A stretch of DNA of 26,900 nt from a virus: positions 1 through 26,900 of IMG/VR virus record IMGVR_UViG_3300031575_000002. One strand, 5' to 3'. Shown here in pieces: positions 7,066 to 26,283 of this stretch (positions are counted from its first letter, which is position 1; each line of letters starts with the position of its first letter). The notes below the pieces were generated by a model. That model was not told the DNA's origin. It saw only the letters and a program-made list of their open reading frames with translations, and did not search any database. A program made the position numbers and the translations under genes.

Positions 7066-7155
7066 ATGGTAGGTTGTATTATTGTAGCCGTATTAGGTTT
7101 ATTTTATTTTGGTATGCTTTTTTCATATAATTGGATAACAAAGGAGGATCGATGA
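7066..7155 (+). CDS. Micro membrane protein (29 aa)
   Basis: Only 29 residues. GGAGGG lies a few bases before ATG 7066. A hydrophobic stretch VGCIIVAVLGLFYFGMLF fills residues 2-19, followed by a short polar tail. The stop overlaps the next start (ATGA). Its size leaves real doubt, but the good ribosome binding site and coupling support it. Confidence 0.45.
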   Translation: MVGCIIVAVLGLFYFGMLFSYNWITKEDR

Positions 7156-7888: not shown

Positions 7889-7902
7889 CAATCAATAACA
7901 AC

Positions 7903-7951
7903 GCCTTAAAAGAGCCTTATTACCGCCTTGTTTGAGCCTTGTTTGGGCTTT
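7903..7951 (+). repeat. 11-bp phased repeats upstream of the small terminase gene (candidate packaging site)
   Basis: GCCTT begins at 7903, 7914, 7925 and 7936, exactly 11 bases apart, with a degenerate fifth unit GCTTT at 7947. Units: GCCTTAAAAGA, GCCTTATTACC, GCCTTGTTTGA, GCCTTGTTTGG. The array lies in the 94-base gap before terS, is not coding, and repeats on one face of the helix, as terminase-binding sites (pac or cosB) often do. It could alternatively bind a late-gene regulator. Confidence 0.6.
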
Positions 7952-7982
7952 CGGACTCAGGAAGGTATATTTATTTTAGGTT

Positions 7983-9628: not shown

Positions 9629-11623
9629 ATGCCTAATATATTTGAAAAAGTATTCAGGAAGAGACTAAGAATAACGGAGACTGAGAGTGTTCCGTACGTT
9701 ATTACCACATCCAAGCGAGGGCTAACATCACAGGATAAGGTAACCGATTATGTTGCACAGTGGAAAAATCATCATATTTACAGGGCAATTGATTTTACTG
9801 CAAAGTCAATGCAAAAGGTCAAATGGTATTTAGAGCAGGATGGAGAACCTCTCCCGGAGAAGAATAAGTATGCGAAGAAATATTATCAACTATTAAAGAA
9901 ACCTTTTGAGAAATGCACCTGGAGACAGTTAATATATTTATGGGTTTGTTCTCTTGAGGCAACTGGGAACACATATCTACTTAAGTTTGGAGACAGCCTT
10001 AGACCAGAGAAGCTGTATTTTATCCCACCTGATAAAACGAAGATTATTGTTACAGATACTAACCCCATTGCCGGATATCAGCTCGATATAAACAGTGCGC
10101 TAAAGAATTTTGTCCCGGATGTGATTATTCACTCAAAATATCCTAACCTTGCAGACCCGCAGGGTTATGGGATTGGACCATTTCAGGCTGCACTTGGGCA
10201 GTACAATAATTATGAATATGTTACGGATTATGCCAATATTCTTCTCCAGAACATTGGCGTTCCTCCCATTGTATTAGAATGGGGAAAGACGCCAGAGCAA
10301 ACACAGAGGATGGTTTCCCTATGGATTGAGAATTGGAGTGGATATAAAAATGCAGGTAAAACGTCGGGTGTCCCAGAGGGAACTAATATCCACAGATTTG
10401 CTTTCTCTCCATCGGAGATTAATTTTACAGGTATTCAAGAGGCAGGAGAAAAGAGCTTATATAAAATCTTTGGAGTCCCCCGTGTTTTAATCGACCCTGA
10501 AAAGGCGACTTATGCTAATGCTTATCAAGCAAGGCTTTCATTCTATGAAAATAAGCAACTGCCCATTGCAGAGGATATTGCAGAGACCATTACAGAATAT
10601 TTAATTTTAGAACCTTCCATCTCATTTAAGTTTGCAATGGAACTGCCCAAAGACCCCGCCATGGAGATGAAGAGAGAAAGAATGTATCTTGAGATGAATG
10701 TTATGTCTCCTAACCAGTCCAGAGGTAACCACGGATGGTTCCCATATAATGGTGGTGATGATGTGTATAGAAGTTTAGGTGAAGTGCCGGTTGCAACTAT
10801 TCAGGAGAAGAAGGGGAAGAAGTCCGCACCTAATATAAAAGTCTATAGACCTAAAGTAATCGGGATACGCTCATGGAAAACTTTCTATCAATGGCAGAAT
10901 GCAGTCGAGAAGAGATTTGCGAAAGAGGTTGATAAGTATTTCTCATGGGTGGGTAAAGAAGTATCAAAGAATTTAAGGAAGTTAAGTCCTAAAGGATTTG
11001 ATGACCCTACGCTATCGGATATGGTTATACTCTCTTATATCATTCTTACCGATAAAATGAAAGAGCAGTTCAACCCATACATTATAGAATCTATTGAGAA
11101 GGCATTTACTCAGAAAATGTCCGAATTAGGTGGAGATGTCAGCAGGATGAATATAGAAGAATATATAAAGCAGTATATCAACAATCTTGAAAAAACATGG
11201 AAGGGAATTGCTGAAACAGATATTAAACAGTTAAAGAAATTGCTTTCAGAGGGAATGGAACAGGATATGACAATGAATGAAATGTCAAGATATGTAAATG
11301 CGAAATATGACCCTCTCAGTCCTGATTACATGAATAAACATAGAGCAATGACAATTTCAAGAACCGAAACGGGAGGAGCAGCGAATAAGACATCTCACGA
11401 TACTATTGATGTATCAGGTATAATGTGGCGAAGTTGGTTTTCCGCTCTCACGGAAGCATCGAGAGAGGCGCATGTGGCTGCTCATGGTCAAGTCAAACCA
11501 GTCAAAGAACCCTTTATTGTCGGTGGAGAGCCTTTAATGTATCCAGGAGATAGGAACGGCTCAGCCAGCAATGTAATTAATTGCCTCTGCATTGAAGTGC
11601 CAGAAGAGGCATTGGAGGTATAA
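9629..11623 (+). CDS. Portal protein fused to a MuF-type head morphogenesis domain
   Basis: 664 residues, much longer than a stand-alone HK97-type portal (about 400). Residues 1-390 are the portal: HHIYRAIDFTAKSMQKVKW (48-66), the GIGPFQAA segment (181-188), VPPIVLEW (211-218) and the FGVPRVLI stretch (281-288). A helical linker leads to a MuF/SPP1 gp7-type domain (about 415-660) ending in ISRTETGGAAN (576-586), REAHVAAHGQ (612-621) and YPGDRNGSASNVINCLC (638-654). The portal forms the 12-fold ring through which DNA passes; MuF domains are internal minor head components. The gene lies base-adjacent to terL and to the protease gene. Confidence 0.9.
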   Translation: MPNIFEKVFRKRLRITETESVPYVITTSKRGLTSQDKVTDYVAQWKNHHIYRAIDFTAKSMQKVKWYLEQDGEPLPEKNKYAKKYYQLLKKPFEKCTWRQLIYLWVCSLEATGNTYLLKFGDSLRPEKLYFIPPDKTKIIVTDTNPIAGYQLDINSALKNFVPDVIIHSKYPNLADPQGYGIGPFQAALGQYNNYEYVTDYANILLQNIGVPPIVLEWGKTPEQTQRMVSLWIENWSGYKNAGKTSGVPEGTNIHRFAFSPSEINFTGIQEAGEKSLYKIFGVPRVLIDPEKATYANAYQARLSFYENKQLPIAEDIAETITEYLILEPSISFKFAMELPKDPAMEMKRERMYLEMNVMSPNQSRGNHGWFPYNGGDDVYRSLGEVPVATIQEKKGKKSAPNIKVYRPKVIGIRSWKTFYQWQNAVEKRFAKEVDKYFSWVGKEVSKNLRKLSPKGFDDPTLSDMVILSYIILTDKMKEQFNPYIIESIEKAFTQKMSELGGDVSRMNIEEYIKQYINNLEKTWKGIAETDIKQLKKLLSEGMEQDMTMNEMSRYVNAKYDPLSPDYMNKHRAMTISRTETGGAANKTSHDTIDVSGIMWRSWFSALTEASREAHVAAHGQVKPVKEPFIVGGEPLMYPGDRNGSASNVINCLCIEVPEEALEV

Positions 11624-13039
11624 ATGGCAAAACTATTAAAAGATTATCTTAAGGAATGTGGACCTAAACTTGGGATAGATCCAGAACTTGAATTTAAAAA
11701 TGCAGTTAAGAGATATGGGGAAGATACCGCAAACAAGGCAATGGTTTTCGATAGTTTGATTTCTATAGAGAAGAAAGAGTTAGATGAGGATGAACCGATT
11801 GTTGATGTAACTGTGGAAATTCCCGATAGGAGTAGAGAAGTTTTACTTGTTTCTGGTGCAAGATTAGCGAATTATCGAAAGAATCCAATTATGCTTTCTG
11901 GCCATAGATATGCACCTGAATTTACTATCGGGGGTTCGAGATGGATTAAACCGGGAAAGACGAATTGGAAAGGAAAGGAAGTCAATAGTCTTAAGGCTAA
12001 GACATGGTTTGCTTCAACACCGTTTGCACAAGACCATAAAACACTTATTAAAGAAAGGGCATTGAGGGCATTTTCGCACACCTTTGTTCCCTTTGAGTTT
12101 ATTGATGATGAGGATTCGATAAAGGAGTTAGGCTTTAAGGCTAAGGATGTTAATAGAATATATACCGATTATGAAATATTAGAACTTGGCCCCGTTACCA
12201 TTCCCGATAATCCTGCTGCACTTGTATCACAGAAAGGAGCAGTCGAGTCGGATTATTTCAAGAATATGATTAGGGGATATGAAGGTGAGGAGGATAATGA
12301 AGAGTATGAAACCGAAGCAGTATCGGAAGAACCTTACGATAAGGATACAGATACATCCATAGAATCTATGCTAATTGCATCAACGAAGTTCGCTGGTTCA
12401 CCCAAAAATAAATATGGAACACATAGTTCCAAGGGATTCAAAGGGAATTATGCAGCAGCTTGGAGATGTCATTTCTCTAAAATTGGAGGAGGTGGACTAT
12501 CGGGAACTGCATCAGGTCCAATTCGGGGGACAGTGAGAAGGACAGAGATGATTGCAGCTGTAATGAAACCTCCTTGCTCATTACCAAAGACAGAATCAAT
12601 TGGAGCAAGACAAGGACCTAAAAGTCCCTTAAAATGCACCTTCCCAGAAAAGCCATCGGATTATGGGTTATCGAGTTGGGCAAAGCCTGGGGATGACAAT
12701 TTAAAACAAGAAGATATCAGGTTAACCTGTAAGGATTTAGCAGTTATTAAAAAAGCTGCACTTGCAGAAATAAAGAGAAGAGCAGCGGACAGGGAAAAGG
12801 AAGAAGATGGCAAAAAAGATTTAATTAAGGAAGAGACTAATTCGATATGGGCTGAGATAAATGCTATTAAGACGGAATTAGTTGAGATAAAGGCAATTAT
12901 TAAGGGAAAGAAAGGTCAGGAGTGGAACGAAAGTAGCTCTGGAGACCTACCCGAAAAGGAAATTGCCAAGGTCATTACTGACAAACTTAGTGATGTCCTG
13001 AAGTTTGGAATGGAAGAACTAACCAAACCGGAGGTATAG
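11624..13039 (+). CDS. Prohead protease with probable C-terminal scaffold region
   Basis: 471 residues, about twice a usual HK97-type protease. Residues 60-205 fit the S78 fold: His94 in MLSGHRYAP, candidate nucleophile Ser151 in AFSHTFVPF, and the strand YEILELGPVTIPDNPAALV (182-200), which matches the conserved end of the family. Residues 215-245 are very acidic. Residues 250-370 form a glycine/lysine-rich segment with cysteines 282, 318, 338 and 369 that I do not recognise. Residues 370-471 are a charged coiled coil resembling a scaffolding domain. The protease would mature the capsid by removing scaffold or delta domain. An extra N-terminal segment of 55 residues precedes the fold. The stop is TAG, directly before the next ATG. 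Confidence 0.8.
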   Translation: MAKLLKDYLKECGPKLGIDPELEFKNAVKRYGEDTANKAMVFDSLISIEKKELDEDEPIVDVTVEIPDRSREVLLVSGARLANYRKNPIMLSGHRYAPEFTIGGSRWIKPGKTNWKGKEVNSLKAKTWFASTPFAQDHKTLIKERALRAFSHTFVPFEFIDDEDSIKELGFKAKDVNRIYTDYEILELGPVTIPDNPAALVSQKGAVESDYFKNMIRGYEGEEDNEEYETEAVSEEPYDKDTDTSIESMLIASTKFAGSPKNKYGTHSSKGFKGNYAAAWRCHFSKIGGGGLSGTASGPIRGTVRRTEMIAAVMKPPCSLPKTESIGARQGPKSPLKCTFPEKPSDYGLSSWAKPGDDNLKQEDIRLTCKDLAVIKKAALAEIKRRAADREKEEDGKKDLIKEETNSIWAEINAIKTELVEIKAIIKGKKGQEWNESSSGDLPEKEIAKVITDKLSDVLKFGMEELTKPEV

Positions 13040-13492
13040 ATGAGGAAACTTGTTTTATTTTTCATGGTTGTGGCAATATGTCTATTCGCAAGAACAGGGA
13101 CTCTCGCGTCTTATTTCGGCAGTGTTGATATTGCATCTTCAGATAGTGTAGCTACTACTGCCGCAGATACTACAATAGTTGACCTTGATACCTTACTGGC
13201 ACAGTATGTCGGTTCGGGAGACTTAAAGGCAAACTGTAAACTTGTTTATAAGGCATTTTCCACAGCTGGAGCCGTAAAAGTCAAAATTACATGGGAGCCA
13301 TCCATAGATGGTAGCACCTGGCTTACTGCATCTGTTATACAAGATAGTTTAAAAACTGAAACCTGGAAGATAGATAGCTTACCTACAAACGCATCTTATT
13401 TTAAGTGGGCTCGAATTATAACCGTTGGATTAACGGGTAATAGTGCAGATGCAGCTTATTGGTTTAGTATATCATATCAGAAGGTAGAATAG
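13040..13492 (+). CDS. Secreted beta-rich protein in the head gene cluster
   Basis: 150 residues. Residues 1-23 look like a bacterial signal peptide (MRKLVLFFMVVAICLFA, then a TGTLAS cleavage region). The mature part is threonine/serine/alanine-rich with alternating beta strands (KVKITWEPSIDGSTW, then ASYFKWARIITVG), like an Ig-like or decoration-type domain. It lies between the protease and the capsid gene, where stabilising or decoration proteins are often coded, yet a signal peptide would send it out of the cytoplasm where heads assemble. Possibly an accessory exported protein, or the N-terminus is a structural helix. A similar architecture recurs at 23599 and 24024. Start follows the previous stop by no spacing; GGAGG lies seven bases upstream. 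Confidence 0.6.
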   Translation: MRKLVLFFMVVAICLFARTGTLASYFGSVDIASSDSVATTAADTTIVDLDTLLAQYVGSGDLKANCKLVYKAFSTAGAVKVKITWEPSIDGSTWLTASVIQDSLKTETWKIDSLPTNASYFKWARIITVGLTGNSADAAYWFSISYQKVE

Positions 13493-13502
13493 GAGGGTTA
13501 AT

Positions 13503-14693
13503 ATGACCATAAAAGAACTTATAGAGAAAAAGTTTAAGGAACTTTCAGACCAGGGGATGGAGGAAAAGATAGCCTATGAATCTCTCGTTGCGGAGTATGG
13601 TCTTGATGAAAAGCACATCAAGGAAATACTCGAAGGGAAAAGCGCTCTCTCTAAAGAGATGAAAGCTGAGATTGAGAATACGGTTGTTGAGACAGTTGGA
13701 CCTCTTTTTAAGGGCTTCAAAGATAAAGTTTCGACACTCAACTTTGCACCTGCGAAAGCAGACTGGAGAGTTGAGATGGGAGAGAAGATAAGGAAAACTC
13801 TTACCAAAGAGTTGGATTCGATTGTAACAGGTAATAAGGCAATCACCACGACTACAATGGCTGCTATAATCCCCGAAGAATGGATTAAGCACATCTATGA
13901 GACTGTCCCAATGTATGGTGCTGCTTTTGAGGCAGGTTTGGCACGAATACCTCTTGCTGAAGTTGTCAATATGGCAAAGCTTGGAACAGATGTAACTCTC
14001 GAATATCAAACTGAGAATACTGCACCTTCTGATTCAGCTCCAACTGTAGACGCAAAACCAGTCAACCGTGAAACCTTGATTGGAACGCTCGTAATGTCAA
14101 GACAATCCTTGAAATATTCAGCGGTAGAATTGACCAACTATTTCACTCAGAGATTCATCAAGAAATATGCCCGTCACATTGATGAGGAAGTATTTACCGG
14201 GACAGCATCAGGCTCTTCAAAATATACGGGTATTACTCAGGCAAGTGGTACCAATTCGGTCATTTTTGCACCTGGAGAAACCAGCTTCAATAATATCAAC
14301 AGGGATTATCTCATTAATGCAATCCATGCGATTAATGCGAATCATCTTGTTGGTGCAGGTTGGATAACGAATAACCAGACAGTGGGAACAATTCACACGA
14401 GATGCGTTACTTCCGCAGGAATGCCTCTCTTTAATTACAACACAAAACAACTGCTTGGTTATCCTGTTCATATCACCTCAGCGCTTCCTGCTACCAGTGC
14501 AGCTGATACCGCATTCATAATCTTTGGTAGTGTGAGTGAAGGTGTAGCCTTTGGGGAAGATGGATTTGAGGTAGCATCTGATGCATCGGTGAAATTTGCA
14601 GAGAACGCAATCATGCTCAGAGCGGTTGGCGACATAGCCATCTATGTTATTCAACCCGAATTATTCACTATCATCAAAACTTCCGCAACATAG
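13503..14693 (+). CDS. Major capsid protein, HK97 fold
   Basis: 396 residues with GGAGGG before ATG. The first 110 residues are helical and charged, consistent with a delta domain removed by the protease. From about 120 the HK97 pattern is visible: IPEEWIKHIYETVPMYG (122-138), EYQTENTAPSDSAPTV, then LVMSRQSLKYSAVEL and the long helix RHIDEEVFTG; the C-terminal P-domain and A-domain strands include LLGYPVHIT and IIFGSVSEGVAFG. These are landmarks of the Phage_capsid family. It forms the icosahedral shell. The stop is TAG. Expected to be the most highly expressed gene of the window. Confidence 0.9.
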   Translation: MTIKELIEKKFKELSDQGMEEKIAYESLVAEYGLDEKHIKEILEGKSALSKEMKAEIENTVVETVGPLFKGFKDKVSTLNFAPAKADWRVEMGEKIRKTLTKELDSIVTGNKAITTTTMAAIIPEEWIKHIYETVPMYGAAFEAGLARIPLAEVVNMAKLGTDVTLEYQTENTAPSDSAPTVDAKPVNRETLIGTLVMSRQSLKYSAVELTNYFTQRFIKKYARHIDEEVFTGTASGSSKYTGITQASGTNSVIFAPGETSFNNINRDYLINAIHAINANHLVGAGWITNNQTVGTIHTRCVTSAGMPLFNYNTKQLLGYPVHITSALPATSAADTAFIIFGSVSEGVAFGEDGFEVASDASVKFAENAIMLRAVGDIAIYVIQPELFTIIKTSAT

Positions 14694-14701
14694 GAGTAAT
14701 A

Positions 14702-14938
14702 ATGCCTTTCAATGATAAGAGCATTAAGAAACTAAAAAAGGACAGCGAGAAGATAGTTGACAAGATACCCGAAGACAAGAAGAAGGTTGAGGTCAAGATG
14801 ATTGCTTCAGCTTCTATTGGCAGAGACCAAGAATTTACTGTTGACGGTGGTGAGAAGAAAGACGGTGTCTATGTAGTGAATACGAAAGTGTATAACGAGA
14901 TTAGACGCTCATGTGTTTTGGTGAGAAAAACAAAATAA
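14702..14938 (+). CDS. Small protein downstream of the capsid gene
   Basis: 78 residues. Lysine/glutamate-rich helix (res 7-35), then a small beta domain (KMIASASIGRDQEFTVDG, ending DGVYVVNTKVYNEI). Proteins of this size and pattern, with a VKM...A...G.....G..Y.V ... A..L... layout, are commonly found between capsid and connector genes, with unknown or head-associated roles. Start has AGGAGTAATA upstream. Followed by a terminator-like hairpin. Confidence 0.5.
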   Translation: MPFNDKSIKKLKKDSEKIVDKIPEDKKKVEVKMIASASIGRDQEFTVDGGEKKDGVYVVNTKVYNEIRRSCVLVRKTK

Positions 14939-14948
14939 AGGGAATAGA

Positions 14949-14980
14949 AAAGGGGATTGGTACCGATCCCCCCCCTTTAT
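14949..14980 (+). terminator. Terminator-like hairpin between capsid and connector genes
   Basis: GGGGAT (14952-14957) pairs with ATCCCC (14966-14971); an alternative register pairs AAAGGGG (14949-14955) with CCCCTTT (14972-14978). A short T-run follows. The next gene starts within 20 bases. It could partially stop transcription to keep capsid mRNA in excess over connector mRNA. Confidence 0.45.
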
Positions 14981-14993
14981 ATAGGAGATTTAA

Positions 14994-15536
14994 TTGGCTT
15001 GGATAACTAAAACAGATGTAAAAACAATACTCGAAACATCATCTACAGAGCATGATGGTTTAATTGACGAATTGATAAAATTTGTAGAGAATGCTTTTAA
15101 GACATTGTCAAATAATCCGATAGATTCAGCGACTCTAACTGAGAAGATTAAGGTTAACAATGGGAATGAGATTGTATTAAGCCGATACCCTGTAACTGCA
15201 ATCGTGGATTTAGATATAACTGAAGGGGATTACACTCAGAATATAGACTCTGACGATTACATAGTGTATAAAAACGGGGTTATCAAATTTGACAGCAGAT
15301 TTACCGGGACGGTCTCAATTGAGTATACAGCGGGTTATTCCACTATTCCTGAAAATATCAAAAAGGCTGTAATCTTTGAGGTGATGGATTTGATGAAGCA
15401 AAAGGGTAGGTTCGGACTGGCTTCACTTGGCAAGCGTGGAGAGGCAACATCATATAACGACATCCCCTGGCTTAAAATATTCCTTGAGGTTGTAGAACTA
15501 TACAAGAATCCAGTAGAGAACATGGAGATAATATGA
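14994..15536 (+). CDS. Head-tail connector protein, HK97 gp6-like
   Basis: 180 residues from TTG 14994 with AGGAG upstream. N-terminal helices (ITKTDVKTILETSS, then ELIKFVENAF), a central beta hairpin (VLSRYPVTAIVDLDITE, YTAGYSTIPENI) and a C-terminal helix (KAVIFEVMDLMKQKG) match the pattern of gp6-like connectors: the phrase YTAGY..IP..IK.A......L is characteristic. These proteins form the ring below the portal. Stop overlaps the next start (ATGA). Confidence 0.75.
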   Translation: MAWITKTDVKTILETSSTEHDGLIDELIKFVENAFKTLSNNPIDSATLTEKIKVNNGNEIVLSRYPVTAIVDLDITEGDYTQNIDSDDYIVYKNGVIKFDSRFTGTVSIEYTAGYSTIPENIKKAVIFEVMDLMKQKGRFGLASLGKRGEATSYNDIPWLKIFLEVVELYKNPVENMEII

Positions 15537-15955
15537 AATTCTTTGCTCGGTTTAAGTTTTTCGATAGGGTTATAAAGAAAAAGGAAGAGAGGATTGAATC
15601 TAATCTTCTTAATTCAATGAATTACATTATGGCTCTAATAAAGGGAAGGGCTCAGGCAATGTATCTCTCTGGTCCTTATCCTCACAGACTGAGTCATAAA
15701 TTCGGTAAGGGAACACTCTGGAAACAAATAGATATCCAATCTCAAAAAGTTTTATACGGAGTAATAGGGAAATTATCAATCGGTCAAATGGCGTGGTATG
15801 CTAAGGTATGGGAATCGATTGACCAATATGCTCATCGAAAAGGAAGGGTTTTTAAGTGCGGTCATCCAATGTCAAGGCCTTTTGCCCGACCCGCATATGA
15901 AGATATGAAACTCAAAATTAAAAGAGTAATAGGAGAACAAATTGTTAAGGGGTAA
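15533..15955 (+). CDS. HK97 gp10-like neck protein
   Basis: 140 residues. An amphipathic helix region (residues 10-45, NSMNYIMALIKGRAQAM) is followed by P-x-x-SG-type loop YLSGPYPHRLSHKFGKGTLW and beta strands (VLYGVIGKLSIGQMAWYAKV), then a C-terminal helix after RPFARPAYE. The combination of TG/SG...L...W, YA..WE and RPF..PA is the hallmark of gp10/tail-completion (HK97_gp10) proteins that join head to tail. Overlaps the preceding gene by four bases and the next by 14. Confidence 0.7.
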   Translation: MKFFARFKFFDRVIKKKEERIESNLLNSMNYIMALIKGRAQAMYLSGPYPHRLSHKFGKGTLWKQIDIQSQKVLYGVIGKLSIGQMAWYAKVWESIDQYAHRKGRVFKCGHPMSRPFARPAYEDMKLKIKRVIGEQIVKG

Positions 15956-16394
15956 AGAGATTCGTGCATGGCTTAATACAAAAATAAGCGCAATTAGTAG
16001 CCCTATGGCATTTGCTGAAGTTGTTACGGATTTATTTGTTTCAGAAGAAGATGCAGTTGCTAAATCTGGGACTCCGATTGCTTTTATAGGACCCGTAAGC
16101 GAGCATATCCCAATTGAAGGAGCTCATATGTCACACAAGGCTGATGTAGCAGTTGGAATAATTATTAGAGAAGATAATGCAAATGATATAGATGAAATTG
16201 TCACGGCAGTTATCAAGGCAATCGAAGCGGACGCATTTCCTATTTATACAAGAGATACAGATTCAATGCCAGGTTATGTCGCATCTTATGATACAGTTCC
16301 TTATGCCTTTGGCAGTGAAGGGCCTCTTGAGGGAAAAATGGGAATCGAGATAACGATTCATATTGAATATCATAGCTTATCGTCAGGGAGGTAA
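15942..16394 (+). CDS. Probable tail terminator protein
   Basis: 150 residues from TTG 15942 with AGGAG eight bases upstream. The N-terminal helix (GKEIRAWLNTKIS), a beta core (DVAVGIIIREDNANDIDEI followed by a long helix) and a C-terminal strand (GIEITIHIEYHSLS) suit the alpha/beta fold of tail terminator (gpU-like) proteins, which cap the tail tube. Identified mostly by position between neck and tail tube genes. Motif-level support is weak, hence moderate confidence. Confidence 0.55.
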   Translation: MLRGKEIRAWLNTKISAISSPMAFAEVVTDLFVSEEDAVAKSGTPIAFIGPVSEHIPIEGAHMSHKADVAVGIIIREDNANDIDEIVTAVIKAIEADAFPIYTRDTDSMPGYVASYDTVPYAFGSEGPLEGKMGIEITIHIEYHSLSSGR

Positions 16395-16396
16395 AA

Positions 16397-16564
16397 TTGA
16401 GTGAAAAAAGATATATAGTTAATGTCGATAAATTTAAGTTTAGAGGCAAATGGCGAAAAAAAGGAGATATTATCAGTATGAATATAGATGAATGTGTCTT
16501 CTTTTTACCTTATGTAAAACCATATAAAATAAAAACAAAAAAGGAGGGAAAAGATGGGACTTAG
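16397..16564 (+). CDS. Small hypothetical protein before the tail tube gene
   Basis: 55 residues from TTG 16397, with GGGAGG six bases upstream. Not recognised. It is basic (RYIVNVDKFKFRGKWRKKGD) with a short aromatic stretch (VFFLPYVKPYK) and a lysine-rich end. A pattern of a small strand followed by RG.W..KGDII suggests a compact SH3-like barrel. Its last 11 bases overlap the start of the tail tube gene, so coupling is likely. Confidence 0.5.
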   Translation: MSEKRYIVNVDKFKFRGKWRKKGDIISMNIDECVFFLPYVKPYKIKTKKEGKDGT

Positions 16565-17489
16565 ACTCGCAAGGTATGTATTATTAGGCAAGTTAGAACC
16601 AATAGCAAGTTATGGTGAGGATCCAACTCCTGTTGTGGCTGATGATGTTATCCAGGCGAGGAACATCACCTTAACCCCAGAATACAATCCTCAAAATATC
16701 CCTCGAGGGGATAGAGGATTCTGGTATAAGACACTACCAGGCGCACAGCTCAAGACACTATCTTTTGATGTGCCACTTACAAAAGCACTTGTCAATGCAA
16801 CTGCTGGAGAGATAACAAAACTCTTAGACGCTTGCGCATATAAGGAAAAAACAGCAGAAGTAAATGAATTCGATACAATCGAAGAGTATAATGCAACCAA
16901 CAGCTCGATGTATTTCTACTTCTATAATGATGGAATCCTTGAAAAGTTATCCGGCGCCCGAGGGACTGCAACCTTTAGATTGGAAGCAGGCTTAGAGGCT
17001 ATGGTTCATTTTGAATTCACAGGGCTTTATGTCAGCGGTAGTGCAGTTTCCTGCCCAGAAGTAACAGCATACAAATCTGGAACTATGTATGTAGTGAAGG
17101 GAAGCACATTGACATTGGGGGCTAATTATCACTCTTCCTTTGTAGAATTCACCGATGGAAACACACTCACAGCTATTAGAGACGCAAGTGGTGTCGAGGG
17201 GATTTATAGGATTGAAGTAGCAAGTGCAAATGCAAGGGGAACGCTTGACACACTCGTTGAGACAGCTAACGCTGCAACCTTAGAGGCTTTGGTTGAGAAT
17301 GGAACTCCAGCTACGATTACTTATGAGGCTATCCCAGCTGGTGTAGGCGCAGATGACAAAAATCCTGTAATCACCATTGGAGTAATCATCGAGAGTTACA
17401 CGAGAGTAGAAGAGGGCGGTTATCTCCGGTATTTAATGTCATTTGTCATAACCAGTCTTGATATAGATCTTGAAATAACGGTTATATAA
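16554..17489 (+). CDS. Major tail tube protein
   Basis: 311 residues with a GGAGGG site. An N-terminal segment (GLRLARYVLLGKLEPIASYG), the strand ARNITLTPEYNPQNIPRGDR (35-54) and the late strands YLRYLMSFVITSLDIDLEI suit tail tube proteins that start with a loop-strand module and alternate beta sheet. Alanine-rich insert at about 215-265 (ASANARGTLDTLVETANAA) may be an extra exposed domain. Its position between the neck genes and the chaperone/tape measure supports the call. The stop overlaps the next start (TAATG). Confidence 0.7.
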   Translation: MGLRLARYVLLGKLEPIASYGEDPTPVVADDVIQARNITLTPEYNPQNIPRGDRGFWYKTLPGAQLKTLSFDVPLTKALVNATAGEITKLLDACAYKEKTAEVNEFDTIEEYNATNSSMYFYFYNDGILEKLSGARGTATFRLEAGLEAMVHFEFTGLYVSGSAVSCPEVTAYKSGTMYVVKGSTLTLGANYHSSFVEFTDGNTLTAIRDASGVEGIYRIEVASANARGTLDTLVETANAATLEALVENGTPATITYEAIPAGVGADDKNPVITIGVIIESYTRVEEGGYLRYLMSFVITSLDIDLEITVI

Positions 17490-17812
17490 TGAAGGAATAT
17501 TTAGACGGTAAAATCAAACTCAAAGAACCCACTCTGGAAATGATGTGTGAGATTGGAGAGATAATACAGACATATAGTATTCCATCTGTGTTGGCAGGCA
17601 GTGGGTTGAAGCATCTTTTAGGAATAATATGTGAAGGTGATGTCGAACTTCTAATGAAAAGCAATCCCAAAGAAAGCAAGCAGATATTACAGGATTTTTT
17701 TACCATTTGGAAGCCCTTGGAGTGGATATTCGCCAATACTTCCACCCTGCCAAAATCAAAGAAATCATTGCAAGAACTTCGAGCAGCTTCCAAGAATATA
17801 AAGAAGCTCTAA
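17489..17812 (+). CDS. Tail assembly chaperone, unshifted G form
   Basis: 107 residues. N-terminal helical domain (KLKEPTLEMMCEIGEIIQTY, 10-29) then DVELLMKSNPKESKQILQDF. Position, size and helix content match gpG-like chaperones that coat the tape measure during tail assembly. The last 36 codons lie beyond a T TTT TTT site, where ribosomes can shift frame. No ribosome binding site of note; it starts by TAATG coupling to the tail tube gene. Confidence 0.75.
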   Translation: MKEYLDGKIKLKEPTLEMMCEIGEIIQTYSIPSVLAGSGLKHLLGIICEGDVELLMKSNPKESKQILQDFFTIWKPLEWIFANTSTLPKSKKSLQELRAASKNIKKL

Positions 17813-17889
17813 ACTCAAGAGTGGAGCTTTGGGAGGAATGGATAAATATACAGGCAAAGATAATAAAGAGGAAACCTAATGCCCGGTGA
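17489..17889 (+). CDS. Tail assembly chaperone, -1 frameshift G-T fusion form
   Basis: Joined product 17489-17701 plus 17701-17889, with base 17701 read twice. It would have 71 residues shared with the G form, then 62 residues from the -1 frame (YHLEALGVDIRQYFHPAKIK onward), 133 in total. The -1 frame has no good start of its own, fills the 66-base gap between the G stop and the tape measure, and ends 11 bases inside the tape measure gene. Such fusions (lambda gpG-T) recruit the tube protein to the tape measure. Confidence 0.7.
17695..17701 (+). promoter_or_regulatory. Programmed -1 ribosomal frameshift site (T TTT TTT)
   Basis: In the zero frame the run is GAT TTT TTT ACC, so both P- and A-site tRNAs can re-pair after a one-base slip, the X XXY YYZ rule. 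It sits 71 codons into the chaperone gene and the open -1 frame follows at once. Confidence 0.7.
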
Positions 17890-19576
17890 TAATATCCTGT
17901 TAGAAATAAGAGCCGATATAAAAGACGTAAAGGCTAAGCTCAAGCAAGTAGATTCTGATTTTAAGGGTGCATCTAAGAATGTCGAGGCGCAAACTCAGCG
18001 AATGAATTCTGGTTTTAGTAATCTAAAAAGAATGATTGCTGGGGCCTTCACGGTTGCCATATTGTATAAATTCCAACAGGGATTAAAGGACTGTGTTAAG
18101 GCGGCACTTGAGCAAGAGACTGCAACCATGTCCTTGCGTTCGATTATGACCAATCTAAAACTGGCAACCGATGACGAGATTGATTCCCTCATTAAATATT
18201 CGGAACAATTACAAAAGACAACTACCTTCGGAGATGAGCAAACGCAAGCTGCAATGGCAATGCTTGGGACTTTCCGATTGAATGCCGACCAGATGAGAAT
18301 AGCAATTCCAAGGTTAATGGATATGTCGGCTGCAATCTCAATGATGGAGGGAAGGGAAGTTAAACTTGTTGAAAGTGCAAAGTTGTTTGGTAAGGCATTG
18401 ATTGGACAAGTCGGGCAATTGTCAAGATATGGTGTTGTGGTAGATAAGGCTGCAATAGAATCCGATAGGTTCGGTGGAATTGTAAAATCTTTAGACGATA
18501 ACTTCAAAGGGCAAGCTAAGACATTGGCTGAGACCAAACAAGGAGGTTTGACTCAATTTGGTAACGCAATGGGAGACCTGAAGGAAGCAATTGGAGACGC
18601 ATTTATTCCCGCTTTGCTGAGTATTGCAGACGCATTAAAACCAATCATCGAGGGGTTTGATAAAACGATTGGTAGAATCGATGAGGTTACAAACGCCTTT
18701 ATCAAACTCGATGAGGCTCAAAAAGGGATTAATGCTCCAACAATGCTAATATTCTTGAAGGAAAGAATAGCTGGGTTAAAGGAAGAGAGAGATGCATTAG
18801 AATCACAGACAGATAGATTGGGTATGAATAAGATAAAAATAGATGAACTCCAAAGCTCCATAGAAACATTACAAGGACAATACGATAAATTGAAGGCAGC
18901 GGGTAAGGATATTAAATATGCTCCAACGGATAAAGAGATTAAGAAGATAAAAGAGACTAAAGAAGCAGTTGAAAAAGTTGCACCTCCATTTGATTATTGG
19001 GTGGAAATAACAGAGCAATTACATACTGCAAATGAAGCTATTATACTTGACCTGATGGAAATAAATCCAGAAATAAAAACACAAAGCGATTTATTAAAAG
19101 ATTTAACTTTATCTCAAGATTTAGCAGCAGAATCAGCAGAAGATTGGATAAATTCCTATCAAGACGCTAAAAAAGTTAATGAACAAATAAAACAACAAAC
19201 CGCTAATATGCAATTAGCTACAGAAGCTGGTCAAATAATGGGTAATGTATTAGCCGATGTTTTTAGTGATTCAGCAGACAAAGCCTATAATTTGGGGGAT
19301 GCAATACAAGATATATTGCTTGCCCTTGCTCAATTTGCAGCTATGAGTTATCTGCCAGCGCCATTCGGTGGGATTGTATCAGGTTTTGCTGGAGGTTTTT
19401 TGGGAGCGCCAGCACCTGGACCAGTCCAACAACCCGCATATTCACAACAGGCTATTACTATTGGGCAAATTAAAGAGGCTCAGACTTTAAGTAAACCCCT
19501 ATACGGAAGAAGATTTTTAGAAGAAAGTGCAATGCAAAACCTTAATATCGAAAGCATTAGCACTTGGGAGTTATAA
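17879..19576 (+). CDS. Tail tape measure protein
   Basis: 565 residues with GAGGA upstream. Long helical protein: N-terminal basic coil (DIKDVKAKLKQVDSDFKGAS), a first helical bundle with TKFGDEQ-like phrase TTTFGDEQTQAAMAMLGTF (about 115-133), FGKALIGQVGQLSRYGV, and EAIGDAFIPALLSIADALKP, familiar from tape measures. A further coiled coil spans about 290-345. A hydrophobic glycine-rich segment near 485-515 (LAQFAAMSYLPAPFGGIV) could act in membrane penetration. At 1.5 angstrom per residue it suggests a tail near 85 nm. The end (after 520) is polar and helical. It follows the chaperone frameshift locus as expected. Confidence 0.85.
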   Translation: MPGDNILLEIRADIKDVKAKLKQVDSDFKGASKNVEAQTQRMNSGFSNLKRMIAGAFTVAILYKFQQGLKDCVKAALEQETATMSLRSIMTNLKLATDDEIDSLIKYSEQLQKTTTFGDEQTQAAMAMLGTFRLNADQMRIAIPRLMDMSAAISMMEGREVKLVESAKLFGKALIGQVGQLSRYGVVVDKAAIESDRFGGIVKSLDDNFKGQAKTLAETKQGGLTQFGNAMGDLKEAIGDAFIPALLSIADALKPIIEGFDKTIGRIDEVTNAFIKLDEAQKGINAPTMLIFLKERIAGLKEERDALESQTDRLGMNKIKIDELQSSIETLQGQYDKLKAAGKDIKYAPTDKEIKKIKETKEAVEKVAPPFDYWVEITEQLHTANEAIILDLMEINPEIKTQSDLLKDLTLSQDLAAESAEDWINSYQDAKKVNEQIKQQTANMQLATEAGQIMGNVLADVFSDSADKAYNLGDAIQDILLALAQFAAMSYLPAPFGGIVSGFAGGFLGAPAPGPVQQPAYSQQAITIGQIKEAQTLSKPLYGRRFLEESAMQNLNIESISTWEL

Positions 19577-22537
19577 ATGACCTGGACACTTAAATATTAT
19601 GACACGGATCACTGGGTAGATATAACCGATTATATTATTGAAATGACTAAATTCAAGTATTCGATGGACAATAGACTACAGGGTTCTCAAATGGTGTTAA
19701 ATATTGTCCTTGATGAGTCTGCTATTTATGGAGCTGGGAAATACAAGCTAACATTGGGAACAGGTGGGAATGAACATTATTTTCTATATCAGGCGCCTCC
19801 CGATGGGATTGAACTTCTTGCGGATAAAAAAGTATCTATAACTTTAATCGATTTCATATTTTATAATTTAGATAAAAGAGACCCTCTGCCAATAAGGGGG
19901 ATTATTCTCGGAAATTTAATATCTTATTGGAAATGTGATACTGATGGGAGCTTTCCCGATTTGTATGGAGGCTATGACGGAACTATTGTCGATGCTTCTT
20001 ATAGTATAGGGGGTAAAATTAATGGTTGTTATAAATTCGATAGTGATAATTTGGAATATGTAACAATAATAGGATTCCCGAATAAAGATATTTTTTCAAT
20101 TTCTTTATGGTTCAAATTAAAAGAAACCTGGGATAGTGGAAGTTCAGGCATAATGAATATTATTTCAAAAGATGATGGAACAGATGGTTTTGCCTTACAA
20201 TTTAATACTGCCGATAATGGCAAAATGAGATTTGCAACTAATCACGGAAATATCCAGACGGTTCAAGATTCTTGGACAGGTAGCCAATGGTATCATATTG
20301 TTGTTACTCAAACAGGGACTACTGGAGAGATTTGGGTAAATGGGGTATTGGATGTAACAGGTAACAATGGATATGCGGGATATGATAATATAGCCCTATA
20401 TATCGGGAAAAGATATAATGGAAATTATTTTGACGGATATATTGATGAGATTGGATTCTGGGATGATGTATTGTCAAAAAAAGAAATCCAGCATATACAT
20501 AATACACAAAAAGGTGCTATTGCATTGGGGAGTTGTAAGGTAAGTGGAAGTGTCTTTAGGGACTTTAAGACCAATTATAGGACAAGACAGCACAGTATCG
20601 ACATAAATGACTTTGAAACAAGTGATGATGAACATTTTAATGACTGGGTAGGAAATAATATCTATATCGAAGATAACCCTCGATATTCCTCTATTGGTAT
20701 GATAAAAGGAAGAAAAAGATATGGGCTTGAATTAGGTCAGACCCATATAAATATAAGAGACCTCTTCAGGGAAATAGCAATGGAAGAGGGTTTATCCCTG
20801 ACTGTTGATGAAGGGGATTTAATCGAAACTGAAAGTGATGACAGTGATGACATTTCATTATCAGGTATCAAGGGAATATGGGATTGTAAATTTGTAAATG
20901 GATTTATAGTAATTACTTATTCCGATACCGGACATTTTTATATCAGGACTTATGACACTGATGGCGTTGTGAAGGATACGGTTACTTTTGAAAGCAGGGA
21001 TTGGGACCATACAGGAGTCGGGGTTGATAATTTAGGCTATCTGATTTATCCAGACTATAATAACCAAAATTTTTATGTCCCGATTTACTATTGCAGTGAT
21101 TACGATTTAGCGAATAAAGACGCCGTGTATGATTTGAGAATTTATAAATATACGATTAATCCCACCACTGGAGCAATAACTCAGGTGTATATGAAAGATT
21201 TTAACGGTGAGTCTGATTTCCTTCACTATCAATCAGGGGATAGAGTGATTGGACAGAATCAATGGACAGACAGGGAACAATTCCATAGCACTACTGGAGA
21301 CAGTATAAGATTTAGAACTATGCCAATGCGAATGAGGGAAATCAAATTATATGTTGATGAGGATTATACTTATTTCGTTCTCTCTGAAGATAATGCCAAT
21401 CCTTCAGCGGGTTCTGGATACACTTATATAATAGATTTGAATTTAGAGAATGCAGGGGGTAGTCCCTGGTATTTGAAGTTTGCAGTTGATTATACCCATC
21501 CTGCTCACGGCTGGGAAGTTGATTATGTGTTCAACGATTTTGGCAATAATGCAATTATAGGAGTGGTTCCTGAATATGTTTATAATACTGTAACCTATGT
21601 TAGGCATAGAGAATTTTATAGAGTTGATTTAGCGGTATTGGATTTAGACCATTACGATGGATATGATACTTGTTCGGAAGTAGCAGAGGACAAACACGAA
21701 CAATTTACGCCTCCGGAACCTATCGTAGCCTGGAGGGAATCAATCAATTATATGTATACTGAAGACACAAGTCGGGAGCATTATTACTTTTTGCCATCAC
21801 TTCCTTCTGGCGTTTTATATACGAATGGAGTGAGAAACAATTATATCCGGGAGACTCACGACTTTATGGACTTGGAATTTGATAGCTATCCAGTAGGTTG
21901 TCATTACGGGACATCTTGGGATAGCTTTAATGACATTGCACTCAGCTGGAGAGATGACGCATGGGAAGATCCCACCGTATTAAAGTGGAGGGAAAGGGAA
22001 AATTACGCATACAAGCGGTTATACCTTTACCAATATTATGCGTATGCCAATAGGAAAGACCAATTCATTGATGGGTTTGTATCTACAGGCTTTTTCTACG
22101 AACAGAGGGATGGGAGTATCCGTTTATTCAGACATAAGACTTCCCCTGATAGCATAGGTACTTTAACCAGTTGTGAACTTTTCTCGAATAAGCTCGAAGG
22201 ATTCACAAAATTCGCAGATAAATACACTATCAAAATATTGGGAAGAAGTATGGAATATGGCTCGGGGCCCCGAGTTGATGAAATTCCAATTATCACAGGA
22301 AAATATGGGTGGATTTCACCTTCACAAGTTGATTATTACACGGATTGGGTTGATAAAATTAATGGAACGAAAGATGGTGTAATAGCCTATTTTGATTTAG
22401 GGAAGTTCTACGAAATCACAAGCACTTATCTTCCTGAGTTGGGGAAGAAATTTGTATTCACCGATAATTATAGATTGATTGAAGCCGAAGTCGACCTGTT
22501 GAATAGAACAGTCAAGTTAGTGGGGGTGAAGATATAA
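19577..22537 (+). CDS. Baseplate/tail-tip protein with an inserted LamG lectin-like domain
   Basis: 986 residues, base-adjacent to the tape measure. Residues 1-110 are beta-rich and look like the start of a tail hub (WVDITDYIIEMTKFKYSMDN). Residues about 112-315 are a LamG/concanavalin-like domain: SYWKCDTDG, FSISLWFKLKETW, GSQWYHIVVTQTGTTGEIWV and YFDGYIDEIGFWDDVLSKKE are its landmark strands. At about 315 the hub sequence resumes (SCKVSGSVFRDFKTNYR) and continues with a beta-propeller-like or beta-rich region to the end (VDKINGTKDGVIAYFDLGKF). By position it is the tail-tip protein; LamG domains usually bind carbohydrate, so host-surface recognition is the inferred role. No protease or hydrolase motif seen. 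Confidence 0.7.
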   Translation: MTWTLKYYDTDHWVDITDYIIEMTKFKYSMDNRLQGSQMVLNIVLDESAIYGAGKYKLTLGTGGNEHYFLYQAPPDGIELLADKKVSITLIDFIFYNLDKRDPLPIRGIILGNLISYWKCDTDGSFPDLYGGYDGTIVDASYSIGGKINGCYKFDSDNLEYVTIIGFPNKDIFSISLWFKLKETWDSGSSGIMNIISKDDGTDGFALQFNTADNGKMRFATNHGNIQTVQDSWTGSQWYHIVVTQTGTTGEIWVNGVLDVTGNNGYAGYDNIALYIGKRYNGNYFDGYIDEIGFWDDVLSKKEIQHIHNTQKGAIALGSCKVSGSVFRDFKTNYRTRQHSIDINDFETSDDEHFNDWVGNNIYIEDNPRYSSIGMIKGRKRYGLELGQTHINIRDLFREIAMEEGLSLTVDEGDLIETESDDSDDISLSGIKGIWDCKFVNGFIVITYSDTGHFYIRTYDTDGVVKDTVTFESRDWDHTGVGVDNLGYLIYPDYNNQNFYVPIYYCSDYDLANKDAVYDLRIYKYTINPTTGAITQVYMKDFNGESDFLHYQSGDRVIGQNQWTDREQFHSTTGDSIRFRTMPMRMREIKLYVDEDYTYFVLSEDNANPSAGSGYTYIIDLNLENAGGSPWYLKFAVDYTHPAHGWEVDYVFNDFGNNAIIGVVPEYVYNTVTYVRHREFYRVDLAVLDLDHYDGYDTCSEVAEDKHEQFTPPEPIVAWRESINYMYTEDTSREHYYFLPSLPSGVLYTNGVRNNYIRETHDFMDLEFDSYPVGCHYGTSWDSFNDIALSWRDDAWEDPTVLKWRERENYAYKRLYLYQYYAYANRKDQFIDGFVSTGFFYEQRDGSIRLFRHKTSPDSIGTLTSCELFSNKLEGFTKFADKYTIKILGRSMEYGSGPRVDEIPIITGKYGWISPSQVDYYTDWVDKINGTKDGVIAYFDLGKFYEITSTYLPELGKKFVFTDNYRLIEAEVDLLNRTVKLVGVKI

Positions 22538-22538
22538 T

Positions 22539-23588
22539 ATGGATAAATTAATGTGGGGTTCGGCTCGACCACTCTTCAGAATTGGAACTAATCGGTATGT
22601 CTTGAATCAACCTGTGTCCGAGCACGGTATAAAATTCCCTAAGCAGATAGTCTTAAATGAATCGTGGAACGGGAAGTTATATGAGCATAATTTAGGGCAT
22701 AGGGGGATTTTTACAGTTGGATATGACCTCCTCGATAGACCCTCCACGGAGGTTATGAAGGACATCCTGAATAGTAGCTCGGATATTTATATGCGACCAC
22801 ACTTCAATTTCTGGAAGGAATATTTGATACGGTGCGTGAATGGGTTTGAATTGGATAGATTCGGGAAGGCGAATCAACCTTATAAGGGAACTTTATCATT
22901 CGAAACAATTAACCTTGAATCCACGATACCCGCTGAAAGCTCGGGTTGTTTCTATTTAGGTGATAATGATTATTGGACTACGGGGGCTTTAACGGACAAT
23001 CTGATTGGGGATGTATCTGTTGAATTTTGGGTTCGTTGGCAAGACCCTTATGGATCAAAAAGAATAATGTATTTTACTGATATTGACCCTCCAAGTGGAG
23101 TGAATTGGCAAATTGATACTGAAACTGGAGGCACACTTGCCTTTATAACGGGACCCCCTGCAGTAGGTCACCATATGGCAACGCCTGCAGGAACTTTTCT
23201 CCCAAACGAATGGTATCACATTGTTTGCAAAAGAATAAATACCGATGACAAATATATTATTGTAGATGGAGTTGAAAAAGCCTCGGGTTCTGATTTATTG
23301 GCAGCAAACAATCTTAACTCACTCAAAATTGGAGAGACTGTAACGGGTTTCGATGGACATATTCAAACTTGCAGAGCCTATGACCAGGACATAACAGCAT
23401 ATAATAATATTGCAATTGAGGCAATCCCCTCAACTTACATTTCAAATTTAAAAATCTGGATTGATTTTAGTAGTGGACTTGGAACTGACCTATCGGGAAA
23501 TTCAAATGATATGACCTTAAAAGGAAATTCAAACTTCAAAAAAGAGTCATTCCCCGATAAGGGATACGAGATAAATGTTTTAACCTAA
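22539..23588 (+). CDS. Second LamG-domain tail protein
   Basis: 349 residues. The N-terminal 130 residues form a beta-rich attachment module (FRIGTNRYVLNQPVSEHG; YDLLDRPSTEVMKDILNSSS; FWKEYLIRCVNGFELDRFG). From about 140 a LamG domain follows: CFYLGDNDYWTTGALTDNL, VSVEFWVRWQDPYG, NEWYHIVCKRINTDDKYIIV and SLKIGETVTGFDGHIQTC, with a final strand IDFSSGLGTDLSGNSND. It begins one base after the stop of the tail-tip gene. A tail appendage or receptor-binding accessory is likely; carbohydrate binding is inferred. Confidence 0.65.
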   Translation: MDKLMWGSARPLFRIGTNRYVLNQPVSEHGIKFPKQIVLNESWNGKLYEHNLGHRGIFTVGYDLLDRPSTEVMKDILNSSSDIYMRPHFNFWKEYLIRCVNGFELDRFGKANQPYKGTLSFETINLESTIPAESSGCFYLGDNDYWTTGALTDNLIGDVSVEFWVRWQDPYGSKRIMYFTDIDPPSGVNWQIDTETGGTLAFITGPPAVGHHMATPAGTFLPNEWYHIVCKRINTDDKYIIVDGVEKASGSDLLAANNLNSLKIGETVTGFDGHIQTCRAYDQDITAYNNIAIEAIPSTYISNLKIWIDFSSGLGTDLSGNSNDMTLKGNSNFKKESFPDKGYEINVLT

Positions 23589-23598: not shown

Positions 23599-24024
23599 AT
23601 GAAAAAAGTATTGTTTGTATTTGTTATTTTATTCCCCATCTTATTGATTGGAAGCACAGATTTAGTAAGGCACGAACTGGCGAGGGACTACGATTATATC
23701 ATCTTCGGAGATACAAATGAAATCTCAATCACCGCCTCAGCCGATATTGACACCTTGTATGTTCCATTAATTGAGATAGCGCACTACAATTTTCAGACCT
23801 CGGTTATATTCGGGACGGACTCGGTTGACGCATATTACAAAGAGGCAATGACCATTGCGGATTTAGACTCAATCTCCTGGGTTGTCTATGATGAATTGGG
23901 AACTGATGATGAATCGATATATTCCTTTTGTCTTTCCGCTGCAAGATACCTCAAAATAATGTATGTGGTTTACACGAAAAGCGCCGAGAAATTTCACTGG
24001 CGCATTGGTCTCTGGAGGTATTAA
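23599..24024 (+). CDS. Exported beta-rich protein near the tail genes
   Basis: 141 residues with AAGGAGGAAAT before ATG. Residues 1-19 are a classic signal peptide (MKKVLFVFVILFPILLIGS). The mature part alternates beta strands and is acidic (ISITASADIDTLYVPLIEIA; SISWVVYDELGTDDES) and ends FHWRIGLWRY. Its layout resembles the 13040 protein (signal peptide, threonine/aspartate-rich beta domain, an ARYLK.. strand near the end), so the two may be distant paralogs; sequence identity is too low to judge by eye. An exported or surface role, such as blocking superinfection, is speculation. Confidence 0.55.
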   Translation: MKKVLFVFVILFPILLIGSTDLVRHELARDYDYIIFGDTNEISITASADIDTLYVPLIEIAHYNFQTSVIFGTDSVDAYYKEAMTIADLDSISWVVYDELGTDDESIYSFCLSAARYLKIMYVVYTKSAEKFHWRIGLWRY

Positions 24025-24590
24025 TGAGAAAGTTATTAATCATATTGTTAATCTTTTAGACCTTTTCATTATTTGGTTGGGCGAAGTGGTCAGAGCAACA
24101 ATGGATATGTAACTATGAGGTGGATTCGATATATGTGGCACAGATGGATGCAAGTAATGGTTTTGGTGTAACTCTAAATTTAGATGCCAAACGGGGAACA
24201 GAAACAGATTTTTTATATATCAAGATGGCTGTTAATGGCGGAGTTTGGTTCTATGATTTAGATGAAGTAACCTGTGATTCCGCGAGGATTGATTCTATAA
24301 ATTGGCAAATGAACATATACGCCAGTGATGCTGATACTATATATTTAGGATATATTGACCTTATGGGTGGGAATTGTAATCAAGCAGATTTTGTAACAAC
24401 TGATACAATAATTAAGAGTTCTAACACGGGTTGTTGGGATACGACTGTTGTTTTTGACCAGAGAATAAATAAATCGAATAAACGATATTTCCCATATATA
24501 AATCTTGTTGAAACTTCAAATAATGTGCATCTTTGTAGACTTATCCTCTGCTACAAAGCCTACAATTTGAGATATGGGATACCTCAATAA
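24024..24590 (+). pseudogene. Signal-peptide gene interrupted by an in-frame amber codon
   Basis: Reading from ATG 24024, which has GGAGG five bases upstream, the frame is MRKLLIILLIF, then TAG at 24057-24059, then TFSLFGWAKWSEQQW and on without a break to TAA at 24588-24590 (188 sense positions). The amber codon splits the hydrophobic core of a signal peptide. Downstream, GTG 24120 could restart a 156-residue product, but only GAG lies before it, so restart would be weak. The mature region is beta-rich with cysteines (DEVTCDSARID, GNCNQAD, SNTGCWD), similar in style to the 23599 gene. Options: a nonsense mutation, a sequencing or assembly change, amber suppression, or restart at 24120. TAG is a normal stop elsewhere in this window, so genome-wide recoding is unlikely. 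Confidence 0.6.
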
Positions 24591-24982
24591 TGATATTTCT
24601 ACTCCTCACCCTTGCAACTATGGGAGAATATCAAGCGACTCACTTTGAGTTTGATAAATTCTCACTGGGTAAGGATAAAATTGCCCATATTGCAATCGGT
24701 GCAGGAGTGGGAGAAATAACCAATGAATGGTTAAGAAATGATAATTTAAGGTGGAAGGACAGATTAATGATAACCACTTTTATCGGTTTTATTGCTGGAT
24801 ATGCGATAGAAGGTTATGACATTAGGCAAGGTGGGTATGCTGATGGCTATGATTGGCTGGCTACGGGATTAGGTTCTACGCTGGGATTCTTTATAGGAGA
24901 GTGGATTTATAACAGGAACAGAGAGCCTGATATTGAACAGCGAACAAATCGGGCAATAAAAAAATGCAGATGCGGGAGGTGA
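24590..24982 (+). CDS. YfiM/VanZ-like small membrane protein (first of a pair)
   Basis: 130 residues; start overlaps the previous stop (TAATG). N-terminal 11 residues are hydrophobic (MIFLLLTLATM), possibly a signal. A motif D29-K-x-x-H33 (GKDKIAHIAIG) precedes a helix; then a hydrophobic helix (ITTFIGFIAGYAIEGYD, with Glu74 and Asp77), Asp85 and Asp88 in GYADGYDW, and a final hydrophobic helix (LATGLGSTLGFFIGEWIY). This conserved acidic/histidine pattern in the membrane is shared with YfiM (DUF2279) and VanZ-like proteins. The tail is basic with CRC. Placed in the lysis cassette; function unknown. Confidence 0.6.
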   Translation: MIFLLLTLATMGEYQATHFEFDKFSLGKDKIAHIAIGAGVGEITNEWLRNDNLRWKDRLMITTFIGFIAGYAIEGYDIRQGGYADGYDWLATGLGSTLGFFIGEWIYNRNREPDIEQRTNRAIKKCRCGR

Positions 24983-25244: not shown

Positions 25245-25484
25245 TTGAAAAACAAAGGGCACGTAATAACTAATGGAAGAACTTTGTGGATATGGATATT
25301 AATAGGTTCTTTTGCAATTGGAGCAACAATAACTATAGGGTTAAAATGGGATCAGATTGATAGAAATGAGCAAGACATTGAGATAATGGAAATTGAACAA
25401 AGAGAACAAAGAGATGTACTGATCCGAATAGATGAAAATGTGAAGGATATTAAAGACGATATAACAGAATTAAAGGCAAGATAG
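25245..25484 (+). CDS. Membrane-anchored coiled-coil protein, XhlA-like/holin-associated
   Basis: 79 residues from TTG 25245, with AGGAGG four bases upstream. Residues 14-33 form one transmembrane helix (WIWILIGSFAIGATITIGL), then a heptad-patterned charged helix (DQIDRNEQDIEIMEIEQREQ). This layout is that of the small hemolysin-XhlA-type or phage membrane coiled-coil proteins near holin genes; here the helix is N-terminal. Function in lysis is inferred from position. The stop is TAG. Confidence 0.5.
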   Translation: MKNKGHVITNGRTLWIWILIGSFAIGATITIGLKWDQIDRNEQDIEIMEIEQREQRDVLIRIDENVKDIKDDITELKAR

Positions 25485-25492
25485 GAGGTAAT

Positions 25493-25699
25493 ATGAAAAA
25501 TAAATGGGGTAGCAGAAAATTTCTACCGCTGGCAGTAATGGGGGGATTAATGATTATAGGAACTCTAAAAGGGTTCTTCTTCAATCTCTCTCCAGAGGCG
25601 TGGAGTTTCATAAAGGTTTCTTTGACCCCTGCGTTTATTTTATTCTCGGGCTGGTATTGTAAAATTAATATCGACCAGAAAATACTCGAAAAGAAATGA
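25493..25699 (+). CDS. Holin-like two-helix membrane protein
   Basis: 68 residues with AGGAGG before ATG. The N-terminus KNKWGSRKF precedes two hydrophobic helices (LPLAVMGGLMIIGTLKGFF at 11-29; VSLTPAFILFSGWYC at 42-56), then a short charged tail. WGSRKF followed by LxxxxG... and SPEAWxxI is a pattern shared with several phage holin-like proteins next to an endopeptidase. It probably helps release the peptidase coded next door. The next gene starts four bases before its stop. Confidence 0.6.
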   Translation: MKNKWGSRKFLPLAVMGGLMIIGTLKGFFFNLSPEAWSFIKVSLTPAFILFSGWYCKINIDQKILEKK

Positions 25700-26283
25700 T
25701 GGACTTAAAAGACTTGAAGTCAATAGACCTATCTGAGCATTTTCGGGCTTCTGAAATATTCTATTCTAACCAATACAAGGTTGTCACCATTGCGGAAGAA
25801 AGTCCCCTTCACAGAGTTCAGTTAAGACTGGCTATAAGATTGGCACACGAACTTTTAGAACCCATTAGACATCAAGCAAATAATATGGGAAAGGATAGCA
25901 AGATGATTATCAGCGGAGGGGCAAGAAATGCGGAGACACACAAGGCAATGGAACGGTTTAATCCTATCCCACCCTCGCAAACATCTGACCATTCATTTAT
26001 GAATCATTATTGGCCTCTCGGAGTTGGAGCAATTGATTGGTATATTCCTGGATTTTTCACTCAAGCAATGGAAGTGCTTTATAAATGGACTATCCAAAAT
26101 ATCGACCCAGAACTTTATGGGCAGATAATTATCTATCCTGAAAGCACTCACAGTTTTATTCACATCTCTAATCCCAAAAGTGTCCTGGGAATGGTAGGAG
26201 CAACAATAAAAATACCCGAAGGTAGAAAGCAATTAGTTTATACAAGAAGTAAGGGATTTGAACCCTTTAATGGAGGTGTCTAA
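25696..26283 (+). CDS. M15-type peptidase endolysin
   Basis: 195 residues from ATG 25696, with an overlapping ATG. The N-terminal region (LSEHFRASEIFYS, 12-24) matches the usual opening LSxHFxxxEF of phage M15_3 peptidases. Catalytic landmarks: IISGGARNAETH (71-82), SDHS with zinc ligand His99, GAIDW with Asp114, and FIHIS with His156. Between His99 and Asp114 there are 14 residues instead of the usual six, an insertion of about eight (FMNHYWPL). Such enzymes cut peptide cross-links in peptidoglycan. The lysis cassette context is strong. Confidence 0.8.
   Translation: MMDLKDLKSIDLSEHFRASEIFYSNQYKVVTIAEESPLHRVQLRLAIRLAHELLEPIRHQANNMGKDSKMIISGGARNAETHKAMERFNPIPPSQTSDHSFMNHYWPLGVGAIDWYIPGFFTQAMEVLYKWTIQNIDPELYGQIIIYPESTHSFIHISNPKSVLGMVGATIKIPEGRKQLVYTRSKGFEPFNGGV

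Follow-up and report, generated by a model that had tools for sequence, protein, structure and literature searches.

A putative nonsense mutation at codon 12 of an accessory gene ahead of the lysis cassette of an uncultured phage

Results

The interrupted gene and its surroundings

The window, that is, the whole stretch of 26,900 bases analyzed here, encodes proteins of the terminase, portal, protease, and capsid families, a tape measure protein, and an S24-type repressor, a gene set that identifies the virus as a temperate, tailed phage. The genome is incomplete, as reading frames are still open where the record begins and where it ends. The gene under study is placed between a tail-tip gene with a Laminin_G_3 lectin domain and the lysis cassette. 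The relevant features are:

23599–24024, plus strand: intact upstream gene, 141 amino acids, signal-peptide-like N-terminus (MKKVLFVFVILFPILLIG), no known family
24009–24026, plus strand: start region of the interrupted gene, with a GGAGG Shine-Dalgarno motif and ATG 24024 in a TAATG overlap with the upstream TAA (from the sequence)
24024–24059, plus strand: eleven N-terminal codons, MRKLLIILLIF, signal-peptide-like, closed by TAG (from sequence and translation)
24057–24059, plus strand: the in-frame TAG, codon 12 (from sequence and translation)
24060–24590, plus strand: part of the interrupted gene beyond the TAG, with 176 open codons, TAA end, six cysteines
24590–24982, plus strand: downstream gene, 130 amino acids, membrane-type, no confident family, overlapping the stop of the interrupted gene
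25245–25484, plus strand: small membrane gene in the lysis cassette, spanin/holin-like (PHROG 739, Rz-like spanin, E=6e-4)
25696–26283, plus strand: endolysin-like gene (PHROG 894, endolysin, E=1.8e-6)

By direct reading, the start region is TCTCTGGAGGTATTAATG, with the ATG at 24024. An earlier note on this DNA had assigned a strong ribosome binding site to this ATG, and the GGAGG is indeed present in the sequence. The TAG after eleven residues and the approximately 176 open codons beyond it, described in the same note, were confirmed letter for letter. Specifically, 24060–24587 translates into 176 sense codons, and the frame is closed by TAA at 24588–24590, the last base of which is the first base of the ATG of the next gene. 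Such tight stop-start spacing, seen at both ends of the interrupted gene, also occurs at many other genes of the window, and ATG 24024 is therefore taken as the natural start of a gene of 188 codons.

In the early block on the minus strand, a 25-base inverted repeat with 96% complementarity was observed (1696–1720 and 2243–2267, 522 bases between the arms).

Coding signal and expected frequency of the arrangement

A codon model trained with the large genes of the window gave the frame after the TAG a score of +0.24 bits per codon. Neighboring genes scored 0.20–0.29, and the other five frames were below zero. From base composition alone, the probability of 176 open codons is about 2e-6. Both strands were also scanned for a Shine-Dalgarno motif and start codon followed by a stop within at most 60 codons and then by at least 100 open codons. 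Seven matches were found. In six, the stop lies shortly ahead of, or in the vicinity of, a normal gene that has a start codon of its own; the match at 24024 is the only one without a separate normal gene start downstream. First-order Markov sequences matched in composition gave 0.05 matches per window at a stricter threshold of at least 150 open codons. The frame at 24024 thus represents either a genuine gene with a single interruption or one whose start is unusual. The coding-like codon use after the TAG implies that the damage is recent or that the product is still made.

A second TAG-interrupted candidate, at 4680–5240, was rejected, as the gene there starts at TTG 4797 with a Shine-Dalgarno sequence of its own (AAAGGGGGG).

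Internal starts and RNA signals

A gene with an unusual start would begin downstream of the TAG, at GTG 24120, GTG 24135, or ATG 24144, and the peptide from ATG 24024 would then be a separate short ORF, for instance a coupling leader. Under the normal code, GTG 24120 opens an ORF of 156 codons, and codon use gives weak support over the first 32 codons (0.045 bits per codon). However, none of the three codons is preceded by a Shine-Dalgarno motif, in contrast to the strong one at ATG 24024. Furthermore, upstream of them the frame is free of stops as far as the TAG, and the hydrophobic stretch extends through that codon. Neither a terminator nor an unusual RNA fold was seen, and we consider an internal start rather unlikely.

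Specifically, RNA folding around the TAG was no better than that of shuffled sequences (z=0.78 for 24000–24140 and z=0.19 for 24060–24120), no terminator-like site was found, and promoter-like sites occurred at chance level only. An Rfam search returned no match. The switch between a short leader peptide and a full product that the earlier note had left open, or an attenuation switch, is disfavored by these results, given the lack of a terminator or unusual folding. A +1 slip at TTT-TAG was discarded from reading the sequence, as it exits the open frame.

Properties of the predicted product

The residues on the two sides of the TAG jointly resemble one signal peptide, MRKLLIILLIF-x-TFSLFGWAKW. 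The cysteines of the remaining protein are even in number and enriched compared to the other proteins of the window (p=0.003). The signal-peptide-like stretch and the six cysteines fit an exported, disulfide-bonded protein, and the product is, judging from its sequence, probably exported. An exported protein had been proposed before for the case that TAG is read as sense.

No family was found for the interrupted protein in Pfam, and a sequence search of the PDB gave no convincing match. Single-sequence structure prediction yielded a mean pLDDT of 37 and no usable confidence. In a library search PHROG 15898 was retrieved at E=0.019 only; this was taken as a chance match, as matches to the same family, at E up to 1, were also obtained with control sequences from unrelated archaea. 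Tandem paralogy with the upstream neighbor was likewise dismissed, the small BLASTP score being reached by 403 of 2000 shuffles.

TAG as a stop codon in this phage

Among the 36 listed genes of the window, 22 end in TAA, 10 in TGA, and four in TAG. The four TAG-terminated genes are those named in the earlier note, namely the protease, 13040, capsid, and lysis-cassette 25245 genes. In three cases the TAG is fused to the Shine-Dalgarno sequence of the next gene (TAGGAGG at 13490–13500, TAGGAG at 14691–14697, and TAGGAGG at 25482–25488), and the fourth sits directly before an ATG. The large genes are open under translation table 11 and none is interrupted by TAG, the terminase and tape measure genes being free of it. 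Translation of TAG as glutamine only extended genes beyond their ends and added a small number of frames that were weak or due to chance. As three TAG stops are fused with a following Shine-Dalgarno sequence, and as a sense reading extends large genes only beyond their ends, TAG is a genuine, working stop in this phage. Overall, a single in-frame TAG was found in approximately 6,400 codons.

These counts bear on the idea that the TAG is partly decoded, either by a suppressor tRNA, encoded in the phage sequence beyond the record or by the host (a pyrrolysine-decoding one included), or by natural readthrough, with the little exported protein so made possibly timed to lysis. Such decoding would agree with the coding-like codon use after the TAG and with the position of the gene just ahead of the lysis genes. 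Genes may be missing beyond the two open ends of the record, and some recoded phages have no suppressor tRNA of their own (PMC10607447). Nevertheless, a single TAG in this number of codons contrasts with the dozens of affected genes in recoded phages (PMC10607447), and the protease, capsid, and lysis-cassette genes terminate at the same codon. No tRNA gene, and hence no suppressor tRNA(CUA), was found in the window or the strain contigs described below, the genome being incomplete, and the z-scores given above indicate no stimulating structure. Partial decoding is accordingly given a small chance. Localized readthrough, one of the options raised earlier, loses ground for the same reasons: a suppressor tRNA was found neither in the window nor in the strain contigs, RNA structure was lacking, and TAG stops late genes. 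A variant in which the amber codon is kept on purpose, so that a part-time suppressor tRNA of the host or the phage switches secretion on in amber-suppressing hosts or stages while TAG otherwise acts as a stop, appears very improbable.

Relatives and strain variation

No convincing relative of the interrupted protein was found among viral contigs or genome contigs, nor among annotated phages, for which matches at E up to 10 were considered. Relatives of the neighborhood were sought with the 23599, 24590, and 24987 genes and the endolysin, lectin, portal, and terminase genes as queries. These retrieved only strain contigs that stop short of the interrupted gene, distant relatives of the terminase and portal, and one short terminase relative with 55% identity (L014). 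The strain contigs align with the window as follows:

7147–23559: contig L006, 99.84% identical
4169–18970: contig L007, 99.8% identical
7702–18970: contig L013, 99.86% identical
7936–13341: contig L011, 99.9% identical

All four end before the interrupted gene, at 23559 or earlier.

In the genes covered (7147–23559), 23 nonsynonymous and five synonymous changes separate the strains from the window, compared to a random expectation of 72:28 (p=0.30). As the nonsynonymous share is no different from neutral, the differences look unfiltered by selection and are compatible with mutations that selection has yet to remove, purifying selection being absent in the short period since the strains diverged. 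Of random coding changes, 3.8% would be nonsense, about one per 28 coding changes, under a model free of selection in which each transition is weighted 4:1. At this rate one nonsense allele in a dispensable gene could well occur in the population. None of the 28 coding differences between the strains is a nonsense change, a count that concerns the covered, mostly structural genes only; this absence would be expected if most of these genes are needed for building the particle.

The strain contigs are also informative on whether the TAG arose through a mistake in the consensus or assembly of a metagenome contig. Only one uncultured-virus record underlies the window, and the sister-strain contigs break near the interrupted gene, indicating strain variation, which makes assembly harder. 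On the other hand, the record agrees to 99.8–99.9% with independent contigs elsewhere, the aligned stretches of L006, L011, and L013 contain no indels, and consensus substitution errors are rare. An error at this codon is therefore regarded as decidedly unlikely.

The tail-tip/lectin region (18970–23588; positions 1–3714 of L007 and the end of L006) is strongly divergent between strains that are 99.8% identical elsewhere, and position 18970 is where the contigs from two strains end or change. In L007, the lectin gene shows only 59% protein identity; its first 136 residues are almost the same, and the divergence falls in the Laminin_G part. The region looks like a variable receptor-binding region. 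At 4648–4664, L007 carries 13 substitutions in 17 bases with identical flanks; the cluster coincides with the spacer of TTGAC and TATATT boxes beside the S24 repressor gene and is perhaps a swapped operator. Dense strain substitutions were observed at 17767–17829, at the 3' end of the 17489–17812 gene and just beyond, at a density far above that found elsewhere.

Discussion

The arrangement at 24024 is best explained by a nonsense mutation, recent or still segregating, that in this phage strain affects codon 12 of a dispensable accessory gene whose product is exported, and we assign a probability of roughly 0.7 to this explanation. As expected of a nonsense-interrupted gene, the start signal is intact and the frame beyond the stop is coding-like. 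Of the three options put forward in the earlier note, a nonsense mutation is thus the best supported, whereas readthrough and a leader-peptide switch are not favored. We infer that an intact allele exists, that the gene is dispensable, and that its product was exported.

With a nonsense mutation at this position, ribosomes would initiate at ATG 24024, yield a hydrophobic peptide of 11 residues, and terminate at the TAG, and the full-length protein would be absent or present in trace amounts only. As the stop lies at codon 12 inside the signal peptide, the short product would be no working protein. The lysis genes farther downstream should still be translatable via their own ribosome binding sites, and the directly following 24590 gene may rely more on coupling.

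If this explanation holds, the gene is one more null allele of a phage accessory gene, and it advises caution against calling single in-frame stops in uncultured phage contigs recoding. Conservation of the stop together with readthrough would, instead, make this a rare case of amber control of a single gene for an exported phage protein.

Phages with genetic code 15 read TAG as glutamine, as described for phAss-1 (PMC10607447) and crAss-like phages (PMC9523058). The recoded phAss-1 contains TAG inside 41 ORFs, including the terminase gene, and encodes suppressor tRNAs (PMC10607447). The present case shares with them an in-frame TAG in a phage gene near the late genes, but differs in that one gene is affected rather than dozens, TAG serves as a late-gene stop, and no suppressor tRNA was found. 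Programmed stop-codon readthrough in a phage is represented by the extension of the Q-beta coat protein. There, too, a long in-phase open frame lies beyond a stop; here, however, the stop is located at codon 12 in a signal peptide, and no context signal was seen. Temperate phages and prophages carry nonsense-interrupted accessory genes, as pseudogenes or segregating null alleles. Compared to these, the intact sister allele is in the present case a presumption, but the likeness extends to a single stop, an otherwise open, non-structural gene, and an intact start signal.
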